Shown here: piece after piece, positions 4,133-10,781 of the stretch
Position numbering within the stretch: the stretch's first letter is position 1
Layout of the letters: the number at the start of each line of letters is the position of its first letter
NCBI RefSeq assembly: GCF_001544015.1
Contig: NZ_AP014924.1
Location: 558,001-622,000, forward strand
Direction of reading: 5' to 3'
Origin: Limnochorda pilosa
Lineage (GTDB): Bacteria > Bacillota > Limnochordia > Limnochordales > Limnochordaceae
DNA: 64,000 bases
Program-made: the position numbers and the translations under genes
The notes under the pieces: model-generated
What the model was told of the DNA's origin: nothing
Seen by the model: only the letters and a program-made list of their open reading frames with translations
Database searches by the model: none

Positions 4133-4504
4133 ATGGGCGCGGCCGAGAGTGGTACCGGCTCGGGACGTACGTTCTGGCGGCGGATGTGGTGGGCTCTGGC
4201 GATCTCGGGGGCCGTGGCGGCCATCGGGCTCGCGGCGGTCACGCGGGATCTGCTGTATCTCTTCCTGCCGGCCTGGGGAGCGGGGACGAAGGTCATCTTC
4301 GGCTGGGACGACACCCGTTACGCACGGGATCTGGCCGAGACCGCCCTCATCTGGGCCGTGATCACGGCGTGGCTGGCCTGGCGGGAAGGCGGCGCGCTCT
4401 GGAGCCTTCCGTTCATGCTGGCAGCCTTCCTGGCCGTCGCCGGAGGGCATGCCATCGCCGTACTAAGGTACATGGCCATGCAGGAGAACGTGGACTCCCC
4501 ATGA
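4133..4504 (+). CDS. Small membrane protein of unknown function
   Basis: A 123-residue protein with a short polar N-terminus and three hydrophobic segments (about residues 19-40, 68-88 and 95-115), so probably an inner-membrane protein. The ATG at 4133 is preceded by GAGGAG at a spacing of 10; the longer reading from 4010 has no ribosome site and the composition of a non-coding frame. A stretch KVIFGWDDTRYARDLAETALIW lies between the first and second spans. No family is recognised. It is transcribed opposite to both neighbours. Confidence 0.65.
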   Translation: MGAAESGTGSGRTFWRRMWWALAISGAVAAIGLAAVTRDLLYLFLPAWGAGTKVIFGWDDTRYARDLAETALIWAVITAWLAWREGGALWSLPFMLAAFLAVAGGHAIAVLRYMAMQENVDSP

Positions 4505-4572
4505 CGGCGAGACCGCGCTCGCGCCCGCCTCGCCTGGGCCGCGTAGGCCCAGCCTGACGCGCCGGGCACCCG

Positions 4573-5067
4573 TCACACGCGCCGCTCGCTCAGGCGCCCG
4601 CGGCAGTGGGCGCAGCGGTAGTCGCGCCCCCCGCGAGGCAGGCGCCGGGCCCTGGGATACACCTGGCCGCAGGCACAGGTGTAGATCCACCGGATGACCC
4701 TGGGCGTGGCCCGGTCCTGCGCGTGCCGGGTCACGTCGCCGCCTTGCCTCCGGATCGCGTCCACCCATCGGGCGAACGCGGGGCCGTGGCCGGGCACCAG
4801 CAGGTGGATCATCTCATGGAGCAGGGTCTTTCCCACCTCTTCGGGATGCTTCAGGTGGTAGTGGGTGGAGAGCCGGATCAGCCGTCGCTTCGGGTGGCAG
4901 AGCCCGGCGGAGCTGGTGAGCCGGCCGCTCCACTCGATCTGGACCTGCGAGGCCGGCGGCAGCTGGCCGTTGAAGTAGGCGCGGCGGTAGCGCTCGTAGA
5001 GGTCTTCCAGGACGGTAACCGCCGGGAGGTGGCCAGGACTGTGCCCGCGATCTCGGCCGGGATTCAT
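4573..5067 (-). CDS. SprT-like zinc metalloprotease domain protein
   Basis: A 164-residue SprT-family protein (SprT/Spartan superfamily). The catalytic helix is HEMIH at residues 84-88, with VPGHGPAFARWV following, which supplies the third zinc ligand region. The N-terminal part LYERYRRAYFNGQLP and WSGRLTSSAGLC match the family pattern. At the C-terminus two pairs, CAC...CAHC, form the zinc-ribbon found in SprT proteins. Length is typical. Spartan homologues degrade DNA-protein crosslinks in eukaryotes; the bacterial role is not settled. ATG 5067 was chosen because the preceding frame is shadow sequence of the C39 peptidase gene; the ribosome site is weak (GAAGAG). It lies 62 bases downstream of the C39 gene and could be the last gene of that transcript. 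Confidence 0.85.
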   Translation of the reverse strand: MNPGRDRGHSPGHLPAVTVLEDLYERYRRAYFNGQLPPASQVQIEWSGRLTSSAGLCHPKRRLIRLSTHYHLKHPEEVGKTLLHEMIHLLVPGHGPAFARWVDAIRRQGGDVTRHAQDRATPRVIRWIYTCACGQVYPRARRLPRGGRDYRCAHCRGRLSERRV

Positions 5068-5129
5068 GAGTCGCACTCTTCGTCGCCCGGGCAGGCCTCC
5101 CTGCAAGAGGGCGCCGGGATAGCGGCGGT

Positions 5130-5783
5130 TCAGAGGCGGACCGTCGTTGCCAGGAGGAGTTGCCTCGGGCGATCCTCCAGGTAGGTCCAGAGTATCTCGG
5201 CCGTCCTCTGCCGGACGGACGCCACACCCTCCACGGGGGGTAAGGTGACCAGCACGTGCCCGGACCAGGAGGCGACGAAGGCCTCTTCGGGCTCCACCAT
5301 GACGCCCCAGGACGGATCCGCGACGACGAAGCGACCCTCCCGGCTTCCCACCAGGACCGCGAAGTGGCGCTGGGGGAACTCCAGGTGGACGAGGACGGGG
5401 AGGCCTGTCTGGCTCTGGTACTCCACCAAGGCGGCGAGCTCCATCCGGTAGCCCTCGCTCGTGAACCCCAGGGCCTGGGCCGCGGCGCGCAGGGAGCCCA
5501 GGGTGTACCCCGTGACGTCCGGGTCCCGGTCCGCGGGCATGTGCGGGCGGGCGAGGAGGACGACCTCCGCCTCCGCGGCGGGCATACCGAAGAAAGAAGA
5601 GAGCAGCGTGGCCACCGCGGCCGGCCCGCAGGTGGTCCAGTCGGTCTGGATCACCACGCCCGCCTGGCGGTGTTCGAGGTAGGGGGTCATACCACGGAAA
5701 GTGCTTTGGAGACCTGCTACAGCTGGGCTCGCCGACCAGAGCACCAGAAGAGATACGGTAAACGAAAGAATCACTCTCAGCAT
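5130..5783 (-). CDS. Exported C39-family (double-glycine-type) cysteine peptidase
   Basis: A 217-residue protein with a signal peptide (about residues 1-23, ending AVA) followed by a C39 peptidase domain. The active-site cysteine is in QTDWTTCGPAAVATLL (Cys52), the histidine in RHFAVLVG (His140) and the aspartate in VVADPSWG (Asp156), the full C39 triad. C39 enzymes cleave leader peptides, usually after double glycine, during export of bacteriocins and related peptides; most are fused to ABC transporters, but this one is a free-standing secreted form like COG3271 proteins. ATG 5783 has GAGGAGG 9 bases upstream. It lies in a same-strand cluster with a membrane protein and a small secreted peptide, its likely substrate (inference). 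Confidence 0.85.
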   Translation of the reverse strand: MLRVILSFTVSLLVLWSASPAVAGLQSTFRGMTPYLEHRQAGVVIQTDWTTCGPAAVATLLSSFFGMPAAEAEVVLLARPHMPADRDPDVTGYTLGSLRAAAQALGFTSEGYRMELAALVEYQSQTGLPVLVHLEFPQRHFAVLVGSREGRFVVADPSWGVMVEPEEAFVASWSGHVLVTLPPVEGVASVRQRTAEILWTYLEDRPRQLLLATTVRL

Positions 5784-5891
5784 AGAGAGCCCTCCTCAAG
5801 ACTGGCGCCGCGGTGCGGCCGGTGTGCCCCCATTCTCCATGGGCTGGTGGGGTCTCAGGCCAGCCGCACGCAGGTTTCTCATCTGGCACCC

Positions 5892-6491
5892 TTATCCACG
5901 GGTCGGCCTGTCGTTCCTCGCCGCATGGATGCGTCGGACCAGGGCTTTGGCGCCCAGCCAGAGCACGAGCACCGCGAAGACGAACCAGAATGCTCCAGCG
6001 CGACTCACCGAGGGTTGTCGGAGAATATCGCCAAGCAAAGGGTCGACCAGCCTGTCGCCACGGAAAAACCACCATGGAATGACCAGGAGTGCTTCCGCTA
6101 CAATGCGCCATGTTCCCCGAATGATGCCCAAGCTCAGCGCGTAGTCCGGGGGTCCTGCAACGCTCAGGGCCGCAAGAGCCGAGGTCACCATGGTAAAGGC
6201 TAGGTTGTAGTCGTTGAGGTTCATCCAAGGTGAAGAGGAGTAGGTAAACGCCGAACCGATTCCCGCATACGACAACCCCAAGGTGACTTGGTACGCCACC
6301 ATCATGGTAATGGCGCCGCGCCAGCCGATCTGATCCAGGACCTCCTCGTCCTCGGTTTGCCGCACCACGAGGGGGAACGAGACGCTGTCTGCATTGCCCT
6401 TGAGTTCCAGCAGAATCAATGCCGTGAGATACCAGGAGCCCATGGCCAGCAGCATGGGTATACCCCCGCATGCCCACGAAAGGATTGTCAT
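5892..6491 (-). CDS. Multi-spanning membrane protein in the secreted-peptide cluster
   Basis: A 199-residue integral membrane protein with about five hydrophobic segments (roughly residues 8-30, 58-80, 95-117, 123-142 and 165-184) and a basic C-terminus. It begins at ATG 6491 behind GGGAGG. No conserved family motif is recognised; there is no ATPase motif and no metalloprotease motif. Its base composition is somewhat less GC-rich than its neighbours, with more A/T at third positions, which could mean acquisition from elsewhere. The position between the small secreted peptide and the C39 peptidase suggests a role in export, maturation or immunity for the peptide, by analogy with bacteriocin loci, but that is inference. 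Confidence 0.7.
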   Translation of the reverse strand: MTILSWACGGIPMLLAMGSWYLTALILLELKGNADSVSFPLVVRQTEDEEVLDQIGWRGAITMMVAYQVTLGLSYAGIGSAFTYSSSPWMNLNDYNLAFTMVTSALAALSVAGPPDYALSLGIIRGTWRIVAEALLVIPWWFFRGDRLVDPLLGDILRQPSVSRAGAFWFVFAVLVLWLGAKALVRRIHAARNDRPTRG

Positions 6492-6565
6492 GCTGCACTC
6501 AGCCTCCCTGATCTTGAGGGGGAACGCGACCCCAATCTCGCTATCGCATCACTCGATGGGCCGGG

Positions 6566-6961
6566 TTACCAGCCGAAGTGCTCCTTCACGTCGCGGTACA
6601 CCTGCGCTGCCGTGTACCCAGCGCCCACGACCTCGAAGCCGGCACGCACGACCTTTACGACGGTTCGACCGATCCGCACGGCCGCGCTACGGCATGGGGC
6701 GCTACGGATGCAACCTGCCACGATCCTGGCTGCGGCCACCAAGCCTGGGGCGATCTCTCCGTCAACGTCCTGGAGCTCCTCGACGGACAGAGGGGTCACC
6801 CCGCTGCCCGCAGGGAGCAGCGAGCCGTCCAGGGTGTAGCTTATGGGTTCGACGGGCGGGAGGTTGGGTCGGGCAGCTGCCATCGGTGCGCTCGATGCCA
6901 GCAGCGCAAGCACCAGGATGGCGGCCACGGGTCTGACCCACACTCTTCTGCGCCTCTGCAC
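6566..6961 (-). CDS. Small secreted peptide with a leader-like LSVEELQDVDGE motif
   Basis: A 131-residue exported protein. Residues 1-30 form a Sec signal (RRRR, hydrophobic core, AAA|RP). After a 25-residue proline-rich linker comes LSVEELQDVDGE (58-69), which resembles the LSxEExxxVxGG leader motif of double-glycine bacteriocin precursors except that GE replaces GG. The remaining 62 residues are alanine/valine/glycine-rich, contain exactly two cysteines (Cys84, Cys90) and end in an amphipathic YTAAQVYRDVKEHFGW. GTG 6961 follows a perfect AGGAGGAGG. It is 74 bases upstream of a membrane-protein gene and two genes before a secreted C39 peptidase. I infer a processed secreted peptide, possibly antimicrobial or signalling; no known family is recognised. 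Confidence 0.7.
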   Translation of the reverse strand: MQRRRRVWVRPVAAILVLALLASSAPMAAARPNLPPVEPISYTLDGSLLPAGSGVTPLSVEELQDVDGEIAPGLVAAARIVAGCIRSAPCRSAAVRIGRTVVKVVRAGFEVVGAGYTAAQVYRDVKEHFGW

Positions 6962-7049
6962 GACAGATCCTCCTCCTCTTGAGCGATTTGCTGCATCCGC
7001 CCATTGGGGCGGCGGGTTCCGGGGTCGCGTTCCCGCACGGTGTGAACAC

Positions 7050-7853
7050 TCAAAGCCCCACGCTCAGCAGCAGGTGATAGCCGGGCACCGTCCGCCCAGA
7101 CTCCACCGCGTGTTCGAAGCCGAACCCCCAAAGGGGGCCGCCCGGATCCGACGCGTGACGGTAGAGGCCCAGCCAGAGGGTGCTGTCGGGGCCAGGACCC
7201 AGCACGTCCCCGAGCCCCACGTGTCCCACCAGGCTCACGCGCCGGTTGGCCACGAAGGTGATGGCGGCCCCAAGATCGTAGACCGGGCGGCGCTGGGGGG
7301 CGACCTGGAGCCCTGCGTCGAGCTCCAGGGCCAGGGGGTCGCTGAGCCAGGCCGACGAGGCCCGGAGCCGGTACCCCACCTTGGCGCTAGGCGCCCCCAA
7401 AGGGAGATGAACGCCGCCGGACAGAGTCGGGCGACCGCCGAACCACTGGGAGGCAAGCGGGTGGATGAAGACCACAGAAAGCTGATCGAGCGCCCAGGTA
7501 TCCGCCCGTGGCTGCCCCTCCACCTGGGCCGAGCTGTGGGAGCCCACCAGGGCAAGGTTCATGGCCAGATCGGGCGTGACGGGGCGCTCGACGGCGAGTT
7601 GAAGGGTCTCCTCGTCGCTCCGCCAGGTCCGCCCGTCCTCGGAGAAGAGGGCCGTGTCGACGGTATGCGTGACGTTGAGGGTCCAGCGGGCGGTGGTACC
7701 TGCCGGCAGGTAGACCAGGGGGTCGATCTGCGCGCTGGCGCCGGGACCCGGGAAGCACAAGACCAGGAGGAAGAGGCCCACGCGCCGGCCGAGCTGCACG
7801 AACCGCCCTGAATGTGCCGGTCTGAAGCGACGGGCAACGGTCACCGCCCTCAC
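7050..7853 (-). CDS. Exported beta-strand-rich protein, possible outer-membrane barrel
   Basis: A 267-residue exported protein. A signal peptide (about residues 24-41, ending GASA) is followed by alternating short amphipathic beta strands, for example ARWTLNVTHTVD, LQLAVERPV, DLAMNLALVGS, SLVGHVGLG and a C-terminal GYHLLLSVGL. This strand pattern and the terminal strand resemble outer-membrane beta-barrel proteins, but no family signature is recognised. The start GTG 7853 has GGGGAGG just upstream. A promoter at 7889-7918 drives it, and the secreted-peptide gene starts 88 bases downstream, so it is probably the first gene of the peptide cluster. An outer-membrane role only makes sense if the organism is diderm. 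Confidence 0.65.
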   Translation of the reverse strand: MRAVTVARRFRPAHSGRFVQLGRRVGLFLLVLCFPGPGASAQIDPLVYLPAGTTARWTLNVTHTVDTALFSEDGRTWRSDEETLQLAVERPVTPDLAMNLALVGSHSSAQVEGQPRADTWALDQLSVVFIHPLASQWFGGRPTLSGGVHLPLGAPSAKVGYRLRASSAWLSDPLALELDAGLQVAPQRRPVYDLGAAITFVANRRVSLVGHVGLGDVLGPGPDSTLWLGLYRHASDPGGPLWGFGFEHAVESGRTVPGYHLLLSVGL

Positions 7854-7888
7854 CCTCCCCAGCTGGAAGTCACAGGAAGTTGAGCCAA

Positions 7889-7918
7889 ACTATACCACCG
7901 GGATGGAGGGCAGGCCAA
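7889..7918 (-). promoter_or_regulatory. Promoter of the 7.9-5.1 kb cluster
   Basis: Minus strand: TTGGCC (7918-7913), 18-base spacer, TATAGT (7894-7889), about 35 bases before the GTG at 7853. The rest of the gap 7854-8279 has no supportable gene; it holds this promoter and the terminator at 8177-8205. Confidence 0.6.
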
Positions 7919-8176
7919 GGTGACGCCTCCGGGGATAACACGGGCGGAGGGCGCACCATCCCCAGGGAAGGCGCCAGCAGGGACGCGCAGGCACTCTGTG
8001 GCCGGATCGCTCACCGGGATGACGGTCAGGGACGGGAGATGGCTGCCCGAAGGAGCTCACCGGTCGCGGGACGTAAGGATCGGTCGAGGGGGCTTCCCGG
8101 ACCCGCGGCGGCGCAGGGCCGTCGAACTACGCTGGATTCGGGGGCGCGGCCTCCGTGGGCTGACGGTCCGCGCGCG

Positions 8177-8205
8177 AAAGAAAGGGGCGCGCACCTGCGC
8201 ACCCC
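8177..8205 (-). terminator. Rho-independent terminator of the cupredoxin gene
   Basis: On the minus strand a stem of nine pairs with one mismatch (arms 8205-8197 and 8192-8184, loop of four) is followed by TTTCTTTC (8183-8176). It lies about 75 bases after the stop codon at 8280. Confidence 0.65.
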
Positions 8206-8279
8206 TTCCCGCGGTTTAGTCAGGATGACCTACCGGCGTCGCCTAGCGGTACCCGCTCCCGGGGGGTCGTCCGTTCGGG

Positions 8280-8675
8280 CTAGCGGGGCACCACCCGAAG
8301 GAAGGCCATCATGCCCGCCTCCTTGTGCCCCGGCACCGCGCAATAAAGCTCGTACTCTCCGGGTGGTAGCGCGGCCATGAGGACGTGCGCCTCGCCCGGA
8401 GCCAGGAGCGGCGTGCCGAACTCGTACTCCTGACCGCCCCTCTCGAACTCGACCCTCAGGTTGTGCTGCAGGGTGCCCCCGTTCACCACGTGGAGGGTCA
8501 GCTCGCCGGCCGGAACCTCGATGGTCTCGAAGCCCAGGGACCACTGGTTGAGCACCACCTCCAGGACCCCGTCCCGGTAACCCGCCTGCCCGTGGGCCCA
8601 GGCAGGGATCGGGGCCAGAATCCCCAGAGCCAGGGCAAGCATCCACGGCACCGACTTCCCGACACGACGACCCAC
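8280..8675 (-). CDS. Exported cupredoxin (type 1 copper) protein
   Basis: A 131-residue exported blue-copper-type protein. Signal peptide up to about residue 27 (IPAWA|HGQ), then a plastocyanin/sulfocyanin-like fold. The four type 1 copper ligands are visible: His71 in TLQHNLRV, Cys112 and His117 in YCAVPGHKEAGM, and Met122. Such proteins carry electrons outside the membrane or bind copper. I place the start at GTG 8675 because AGGAGG lies seven bases before it; the ATG two codons upstream (8681) is only one base from the same ribosome site. The gene is alone, divergent from arsR across about 220 bases, and ends in a terminator. Its electron partners are not in the window. Confidence 0.85.
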   Translation of the reverse strand: MGRRVGKSVPWMLALALGILAPIPAWAHGQAGYRDGVLEVVLNQWSLGFETIEVPAGELTLHVVNGGTLQHNLRVEFERGGQEYEFGTPLLAPGEAHVLMAALPPGEYELYCAVPGHKEAGMMAFLRVVPR

Positions 8676-8893: not shown

Positions 8894-9277
8894 GTGAAGC
8901 TGCCTGTGGAGGAAAGGTCACCCGAGGCGGTTCGAGGCGCCGTCGTCCAGACCGCCAAGGCCCTCAGCGACCCGGCCCGGGTGCAGATGCTCGAGCTCAT
9001 CGCTCACGGGAGGGCATGCTGCAACCTCCCCACCGAGCCGGACACGCCCGACGGGGTCTGCGTCTGCGAGCTCCAGGAGCAGCTGGGCCTCGGCCAATCG
9101 CTGGTCTCCTACCACGTCCGGGTGCTCAAGGAGGCAGGCCTGGTACGGGAAGCGCACCGGGGTCGATGGACCTACTACCTCCTGGATGTCTCGGGTCTCG
9201 CGGCGTTGCGGGCGTTCACGCAGGAGCTGGCGCCGGTCGAGAGCCAGGGGCTGATCAAGCAGGATCCAACCTTCTGA
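8894..9277 (+). CDS. arsR: ArsR-family arsenic-responsive repressor
   Basis: A 127-residue winged-helix repressor of the ArsR/SmtB family. The helix-turn-helix is LGLGQSLVSYHVRVLKEAGLV (about residues 64-84) and the wing is HRGRWTYYLL. Cysteines sit at 42-43 (RACC) and 56/58 (GVCVCEL); the last pair matches the CVC/ELCVCDL arsenite-binding element of ArsR proteins. GTG 8894 has AGGAGG seven bases upstream. It should release DNA on binding As(III) or Sb(III). A hairpin terminator follows, and the second arsenic transcript (small Cys protein and ArsN2-ArsM) begins behind a second, near-identical operator. Confidence 0.9.
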   Translation: MKLPVEERSPEAVRGAVVQTAKALSDPARVQMLELIAHGRACCNLPTEPDTPDGVCVCELQEQLGLGQSLVSYHVRVLKEAGLVREAHRGRWTYYLLDVSGLAALRAFTQELAPVESQGLIKQDPTF

Positions 9278-9596: not shown

Positions 9597-10781
9597 GTGC
9601 AGAGGCATGCACAGGTTCAGTCGACACCGGCCGCAGAGCTCCCGGGCGAGGCCACGGAGCTCCTCGCGAGCCGGGGTCTGCCACCGCTGGCCGGGAGCGC
9701 ACCGCGGGAGTTCTGGGTGGCCCGGTCCGGTGAGGAGCTGGTGGGGCTGGCAGGCATCGAGTGGTACGGCTCGCACGGCCTGCTGCGCTCGGTGGCGGTC
9801 CTGGAAGGGTGGGAAGGCCGGGGCATCGGCAGTAGGCTGGTGGACGCCGCGCTGGACCGCTTCCTGGAGAGCGGCGCGGAGGACCTTCTCCTTCTCACCA
9901 CCGGCGCTTCGGGCTTCTTCGCCCGCCTGGGCTTCGTGCCCGTGGATCGGCAGGAGGTCCCCGACGCGGTGCTCCGGAGCGAGGAGTTCGCCAACCAGTG
10001 CCCGGAGACGGCCGTCGCCATGCGCCTGGACCGGCGGCGCCTCGAGACCGTCCGGCACTACGACCGCTCCGCCGCCAGGGCCGCGTCTCGGGGGCGGGGG
10101 CGAGAGCTCCAGGATCAGGAGCGAAGCACTCAGGAGATCCCCATGGCCTCCGGCGGCTGCTGCTCCAGCAGCGGGTGCGGCTGCGGTGGGGCACCGGATG
10201 AGATCCCCTCGTGGGGATGCACGCTGGATCCCCTCTTCGGCGACCCCGCCCCGGGCGAGGTCGTGCTGGACCTGGGGTGCGGCACGGGACGGAACGCCTT
10301 TGAGGCGGCCCGGCGGGTGGGACCCACGGGACGCGTCTATGGCCTGGATTTGAGCCCCACCATGCTGGCGGAGGCCCGCCGCCATAGGGACCGCCTGGGC
10401 CTTTCGCACGTCTCCTTCCTTCAGGCCCCCATGGAGGCAGTGCCCCTTCCCGACGGGAGCGTGGATCTGGTGATCAGCGACTGTGTGCTCAACCTCTCCA
10501 CCGACAAGCCTCGGGTCCTTCGGGAGGCCTTCCGGGTGCTTCGCCCCGGCGGGCGCCTGGCCATCGCCGACGTGGTGCGCACCGTGCCAGACCCGGCCGA
10601 ACCTGAGTCGTCCGAAGGCTGGAGCGCCTGTGTGGACGGCGCGATCACAGCCGACGCGTACCTGGCCCTCCTTGCGCAGGCCGGGTTCACGGAGCCATCC
10701 GTGGAGGTGCTGCACGGAGGCGGTGCCGGGGAGGCGGCTCCGAGGGTGGCTACGGCGCACGTCCGGGCGCGGAGGGCGTAA
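9597..10781 (+). CDS. arsM: ArsN2-like N-acetyltransferase fused to an ArsM-type arsenite methyltransferase
   Basis: A 394-residue two-domain protein. Residues about 5-145 are a GNAT acetyltransferase of the ArsN2 type (VAVLEGWEGRGIGSRL acetyl-CoA loop, LLLLTTGASGFFARLGF, then EEFANQCPETAVAM). Residues about 180-394 are a SAM-dependent methyltransferase: Cys-rich start GGCCSSSGCGCGG (about 186-198), SAM motif LDLGCGTGR (about 224-232), YGLDLSPTML, and ISDCVLNLSTDK, the ArsM signature around its catalytic cysteine. ArsM methylates arsenite to volatile or less toxic species; ArsN-type enzymes acetylate arsenicals or act in resistance by an unsettled route. GTG 9597 follows AAAAGGAGG. The fused arrangement is unusual; the two activities normally come as separate proteins. 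The linker 150-180 is arginine-rich and low in structure. Confidence 0.8.
   Translation: MQRHAQVQSTPAAELPGEATELLASRGLPPLAGSAPREFWVARSGEELVGLAGIEWYGSHGLLRSVAVLEGWEGRGIGSRLVDAALDRFLESGAEDLLLLTTGASGFFARLGFVPVDRQEVPDAVLRSEEFANQCPETAVAMRLDRRRLETVRHYDRSAARAASRGRGRELQDQERSTQEIPMASGGCCSSSGCGCGGAPDEIPSWGCTLDPLFGDPAPGEVVLDLGCGTGRNAFEAARRVGPTGRVYGLDLSPTMLAEARRHRDRLGLSHVSFLQAPMEAVPLPDGSVDLVISDCVLNLSTDKPRVLREAFRVLRPGGRLAIADVVRTVPDPAEPESSEGWSACVDGAITADAYLALLAQAGFTEPSVEVLHGGGAGEAAPRVATAHVRARRA

Follow-up and report, generated by a model that had tools for sequence, protein, structure and literature searches.

A nap-like operon variant with a Sec signal and a Gly-Glu leader for a putative bacteriocin-like peptide in Limnochorda pilosa

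Results

The window, a stretch of 64,000 nucleotides from Limnochorda pilosa (contig NZ_AP014924.1, positions 558,001 to 622,000) within a single-contig genome of 3.82 Mb, holds a minus-strand operon of four genes, which we read, with a probability of about two in three, as a nap/Fap-like operon by which a two-membraned bacterium matures and secretes a bacteriocin-like peptide. The genes encode, in this order, an outer-membrane β-barrel of 267 aa recognized by predicted fold and profile comparison (7050–7853, candidate exporter); a 131-aa Sec precursor with a GTG start, whose leader is common to precursors adjoining homologous C39 genes (6566–6961); a 199-aa membrane protein, proposed as immunity partner, whose position after the precursor recurs in relatives (5892–6491); and a free C39 peptidase of 217 aa with a Sec-type N terminus (5130–5783; PF03412). 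The intergenic gaps measure 88, 74 and 108 nt. A preliminary description of this DNA had proposed a three-part system of precursor, membrane protein and C39 peptidase; these three parts stand, and the barrel gene is a fourth that it had overlooked.

The precursor combines a Sec signal with a C39-like leader motif, as had been described. A hydrophobic, signal-like stretch begins at about residue 12 (11-mer mean 3.21) and is followed by a plausible AxA signal-peptidase site between MAAA and RP, which places the approximate signal peptide, judged by hydropathy and by eye, at residues 1–31 (6869–6961, minus strand). The leader motif LSVEELQDVDGE occupies residues 58–69 (6755–6790, minus strand), with the spacing that is canonical for C39 leaders (L-12, S-11, L-7, V-4, G-2; compare PMC6363468) and E at −1. 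The predicted mature peptide, residues 70–131 (6569–6754, minus strand), would have 62 residues, a net charge of +6 and two cysteines, and its Gly+Ala content of 31% compares with a median of 22% for the 35 called genes in the rest of the window, in keeping with the compact, two-cysteine, Ala/Val/Gly-rich end noted before. Matches to the moricin and cerein 7B families fell far below cut-off and were discarded. With the window precursor as query, a search of 398 genomes of the phylum returned, besides the precursor itself, only weak matches (E 0.0016 or worse), which we take as chance.

The ending GE in place of GG had been counted as a point against simple processing, an objection that the relatives do not bear out. 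Bipolaricaulota and Limnochordia normally have Glu at −1, and the residue there is K or A in Thermus, A in Acinetobacter and G in Campylobacter; some relatives' leaders have G, A, K, M, Q, D or R there. Among 13 non-redundant Bipolaricaulota precursors, Gly-2, Leu-7 and Glu-13 are invariant, and identity is 0.85 at E(−1) and only 0.08 one position later, at +1 (0.48–0.63 across −20 to −1, 0.10 across +1 to +5). The leader motif is thus kept in relatives, and because conservation stops exactly after GE, cleavage is predicted at this point. Judged from these alignments, GE is the usual leader ending of the precursor family and no defect. The predicted cores beyond it are highly diverse, range from 44 to 186 residues and come with one membrane partner apiece.

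Two genes downstream of the precursor, the C39 peptidase (PF03412, E 2.8e-16) stands alone, without an ATP-binding cassette (ABC) part. The full Cys/His/Asp triad ascribed to it earlier corresponds to C52, H140 and D156, invariant in 9/9 and 11/11 aligned relatives in two alignments. NCBIfam models for FilB (1.9e-13) and FapD (5.2e-11) matched far below their cut-offs; at 42.3 bits against the FapD cut-off of 330, the enzyme is related to that family and not a member. All 11 members of one alignment also match FapD (best 1.1e-21) and FilB.

The preliminary description had made its proposal depend on the co-occurrence of the two protein families, and motif-bearing Sec precursors do recur beside homologous free C39 genes. 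A first position-specific scoring matrix (PSSM), built from 12 seed motifs and combined with a signal-peptide filter, returned nothing from 126.7 kb of control sequence; in 527 kb around C39 genes it gave two low scores that are spurious (12.1 and 12.5), and it recovered non-seed precursors beside C39, for example at loci L045, L046, L047, L122, L124, L128 and L134. A PSSM re-trained on these same precursors, with counts that include near-identical loci, found, in 18 of 31 strong loci and in 3 of the 18 weak ones, a leader-bearing Sec precursor on the C39 strand within 5 kb; its background was a candidate in 2 of 245 shuffled loci and in 0 of 28 control stretches. L038, which carries the precursor LGPEEQQQLSGE in a long open reading frame (ORF), and its near-identical relative L085, with a like precursor, are tallied as misses in these counts because the position limit of the scan excluded their precursors.

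Barrels also lie close to C39: a homologue occurs within 3.5 kb on the same strand in 29 of the 31 strong loci, both misses being contig ends, and in 5 of the 18 weak loci, several of which have other barrel-like genes (by eye); the profile behind these counts was made from 15 of these same barrels. AF2 models show 12 strands for both the window barrel (pLDDT 68.5, pTM 0.62) and a Bipolaricaulota barrel (pLDDT 80.7, pTM 0.68). In Foldseek searches, FapF chains took ranks 1–6 for the window model (best E 1.2e-8) and FapF came first for the Bipolaricaulota model (E 2.3e-9). VIA also put FapF first for the window model at Z 19.4 (208–212 residues, root-mean-square deviation 2.7–2.9), about one unit above 4rl8 (Z 18.3) and ahead of NalP (17.4); for neither model does VIA separate FapF from other barrels. 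A profile of the 15 barrels aligned by hhalign with a FapF-like protein at E 9.4e-6 (probability 83), and the NCBIfam FapF model matched zero of the 15.

The window membrane protein had no match in Pfam and NCBIfam scans, and membrane proteins in this position differ widely in sequence; what recurs is the pairing. In 25 of 28 hand-picked GE-type cases, or 19 of 22 once near-identical ones are removed (the Fap-like locus L037 and plasmid loci were excluded), the start of a small membrane protein lies no more than 330 nt downstream of the precursor, against 34 of 255 control genes (Fisher 1e-12 vs 19/22); the coding-score filter was waived for the ORFs of seven loci, each of them in the test set, which biases the comparison towards the test set. 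An earlier control (33/164) was replaced, since its ORF choice differed from that of the test set. The likeliest reading makes the membrane protein a dedicated partner of the precursor, probably with a role in immunity. Three or more precursor-partner cassettes lie within one C39 region at L049 and L134. Truncated C39 5′ ends were observed between or before precursor cassettes at L134, L043 and L049 (all Bipolaricaulota), with a transposase-like ORF (by eye) between two C39 pieces at L049. Because broken C39 5′ ends stand between them, the cassettes look as if stacked via recombination at the C39 gene.

Beyond the window, the module is found in Limnochordia, Bipolaricaulota and Meiothermus as well as on plasmids of Thermus, Deinococcus and Acinetobacter. 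The C39 profile matched 38 of 72 genomes of the host class at 1e-12, 11 of them below 1e-60, and 18 of 100 Bipolaricaulota genomes at 1e-15; scanning contigs yielded 14 loci, Meiothermus included, of which at least three coincide with loci already found. In one Meiothermus assembly (L047, 7938–8573) C39 lies in two frames and the barrel is short, reflecting either decay or an assembly error. A sample of the host phylum had C39 at 1e-8 in 18 of 396 genomes, by frame length nine free C39 and nine ABC-C39-like. Omp85 is present in the host genome, in 100 of 394 phylum-sample genomes, including all nine with free C39, and in 32 of 32 selected genomes (19/19 and 13/13) comprising carriers and class relatives, some without C39. 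Limnochordia have been described as two-membraned (PMC11456536). No viral contig carrying C39 was confirmed; a bacteriophage origin was rejected, as only two Acinetobacter contigs were labelled phage, and in one of these the neighbors are histidine-biosynthesis and pabB genes plus a Fil-like set.

A tblastn search located the module on plasmids of Thermus thermophilus, T. aquaticus (pTA16) and T. oshimai (pTHEOS02); for these three, the PLSDB gene table has C39 and barrel, and the precursor genes are missing from it. In T. aquaticus and T. oshimai the precursor overlaps a CPBP/Rce1-like gene (PF02517, 8e-7), a family with known bacteriocin immunity members. On a Deinococcus plasmid, the precursor with LSDAELDEVKGE has an Ntox33 domain at its end (3.7e-23) and a DUF4279 protein after it, and Acinetobacter plasmids of 6.3 kb (MOBP) and 135.5 kb encode precursors together with C39 and with partners that are membrane or soluble proteins. 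The plasmid versions support a toxin cargo. Campylobacter plasmids (47 records) also encode a free C39, together with a 284-aa barrel-like protein in all three regions read (L150–L152), and in two of these three regions Sec-type proteins end in canonical KGG leaders.

Around the operon, a promoter-like site with an extended −10 (TTGGCC-18-TATAGT, 7889–7918, minus strand; consensus match only) lies 35 nt upstream of the barrel gene and is the sole such match in 4400–8400 (shuffles mean 0.2). The gene after C39 (5067–4573) is SprT-like and without evident link to the operon. Elsewhere in the window, a single ORF (9597–10781) seemingly fuses a GNAT domain to an arsenite-methyltransferase-like domain and adjoins an ArsR-like gene (8894–9277; both by eye).

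Discussion

Taken together, these observations suggest the following route. Sec would carry the precursor across the inner membrane, where the signal peptide would be removed; the free C39 peptidase would then bind the helical LSxEELxxVxG leader and cut after GE, releasing a cationic, Gly/Ala-rich peptide of 62 residues. The 12-stranded barrel, a predicted fold, may pass this peptide through the outer membrane, and the membrane protein whose gene immediately follows that of the precursor, and which pairs with it one-to-one, may shield the producer. The likely role is antagonism, or self-lysis of the kind reported for the gonococcal Nap peptides. Maturation after Sec export had been proposed before and agrees with the co-occurrence and the leader conservation; we would place it more precisely in the periplasm, since the operon includes an outer-membrane barrel and Omp85 is present in the host.

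Several observations weigh against a bacteriocin-like secretion operon. A local precursor was found in only 3 of the 11 strong Limnochordia loci examined (the window, L033 and L080); at L031, L032, L034, L041, L048 and L077–L079 C39 is present and no precursor was found nearby, and a barrel is there in all of these with the exception of L078, at a contig end. The usual −1 residue in C39 leaders is Gly, Ala or Ser, with a narrow pocket (PMC6363468), and compared with the leaders treated in that source Glu is out of the ordinary at this position. When charged residues of C39 were screened for one that could read Glu(−1), none emerged; Arg39 was considered and dropped because several GG and GA systems carry it as well. 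In VIA comparisons of the Bipolaricaulota barrel, KdgM porins (Z 22.3) stood above FapF (20.8). Hydropathy found no transmembrane-like segment in the window core, and for the Nap peptides antimicrobial activity was, according to their report, not seen (PMC11798529).

The strongest competitor is a Fap-like structural system, in which the mature peptides would form amyloid or a coat on the cell surface, with the membrane protein as assembly factor. The resemblance of C39 and barrel to FapD and FapF speaks for it, and so does a clearly Fap-like locus in the host phylum (L037, genome G324, 5181–7941; NCBIfam FapD 9.7e-40, FapF 7.2e-30), where NxFQN-repeat proteins accompany a small Sec protein carrying VSEDELSGIAGM. 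Leader-like motifs occur in Fap-type plasmid loci, too: small Sec-type proteins with VSDAELGKVAGK, ITDYELATMRGG and VASSKLDDVRGG, candidate FapD substrates, were seen in the Fap-type loci L147 (4149–4463, 5145–5828) and L148 (3917–4405) of Polymorphobacter and Cupriavidus. However, the window precursor lacks amyloid repeats, the high diversity of the cores, with one membrane partner each, speaks against it, and the Ntox33-bearing precursor and the CPBP partner suit toxins better; we consider this explanation unlikely.

Less probable still is a signalling peptide, that is, a pheromone released by C39 and sensed via the membrane protein: although C39 leaders serve signalling peptides as well (PMC6363468) and both Deinococcus plasmid loci lie near a response regulator, with an annotated histidine kinase in NW-56, the membrane partners are diverse, a sensor domain was not found in them, the window operon has no kinase, and the cores have 44–186 residues. 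Equally improbable, in our estimate, is a C39 that acts as a chaperone by binding leaders, or that cleaves a different substrate, the barrel for instance, with the GE leader a mere recognition tag; a chaperone role, possible cleavage of FapF and the unclear target of FapD are discussed in the FapD study (PMC5557850), and the atypical Glu fits, but the catalytic triad is invariant and core conservation ends precisely past GE.

If the operon does serve to mature and secrete a bacteriocin-like peptide, the signature of Sec signal, LSxEELxxVxGE, free C39 and barrel could locate antagonistic peptides in deep-branching diderms and on plasmids, including precursors missing from gene tables. It would also offer a testable answer to the question of what FapD-type periplasmic C39 peptidases cut, with C39 leaders employed after Sec export and not before ABC export. 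Since the kit is found on plasmids as well as in a number of deep-branching bacteria with two membranes, it may be a little-known secretion route. A wider version, to which we give slightly less than even odds, is that of a general diderm route in which C39-leader precursors are exported by Sec, cut by a FapD-like enzyme in the periplasm and released through a FapF-like barrel, with bacteriocin-like peptides, toxin domains and amyloid subunits as cargo. Fap and nap would then be specialized branches, the leader would mark FapD substrates, and Gly-Glu would be the signal in deep-branching phyla.

Comparison with known systems

Double-glycine class II bacteriocins, which use ABC-C39 exporters, share with the window operon the leader spacing L-12, S-11, L-7, V-4 and G-2, a small Gly/Ala-rich core and an adjacent membrane protein. 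They differ from it in that the window operon has a Sec signal before the leader, a free extracytoplasmic C39 and E instead of G at −1; its GE falls outside the Gly-Gly, Gly-Ala or Gly-Ser endings of ABC-exported bacteriocins, and no ABC exporter gene, and with it no C39-ABC fusion, was seen in the operon.

In the Fap system, as in the window, a single operon encodes a C39 exported by Sec and an outer-membrane barrel of 12 strands. FapD works in the periplasm and FapC secretion depends on the Cys of this enzyme, whose target is described as unclear (PMC5557850); fapD/fapF pairs are known from five further phyla, for which the survey, in the part concerned, describes no cargo (PMC6173800). Unlike Fap, the window operon has no coiled-coil domain before the barrel, and its only cargo is one peptide, accompanied by a membrane partner. 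Since amyloid repeat subunits are absent from the window genes (none by eye, no family match) and the family scores fall short, the operon falls outside Fap on these two counts.

The closest precedent is the nap island of Neisseria gonorrhoeae (NapABC, NapP, NapF, NapI), where bacteriocin-like GG peptides are encoded together with a C39, a homologue of FapF and an immunity-like protein related to LagC (PMC11798529). There, autolysis is reported for the peptides, periplasmic cleavage followed by barrel export is proposed, and a holin-like protein is the authors' suggestion for crossing the inner membrane (PMC11798529). The window likewise combines a bacteriocin-like peptide precursor with a C39 leader, a free C39 peptidase and a FapF-type barrel, the last assigned by predicted fold and pairing and not by family score. 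In contrast to the GG leader and holin-like protein of nap, its precursor has a Sec signal and a GE ending; a counterpart of NapR or NapH was not recognized in the window, the phyla differ, and relatives of the window operon include Ntox33 cargo and multi-cassette loci. The preliminary description had suggested a possibly new system; periplasmic C39 peptidases have precedents in FapD (PMC5557850) and NapP (PMC11798529), and what does appear to be new is the variant, as a literature search found no earlier description of a Sec signal joined to a GE leader and only the nap report as a close precedent. On its gene content, the operon is best called a nap-like variant with a Sec signal and a GE leader.

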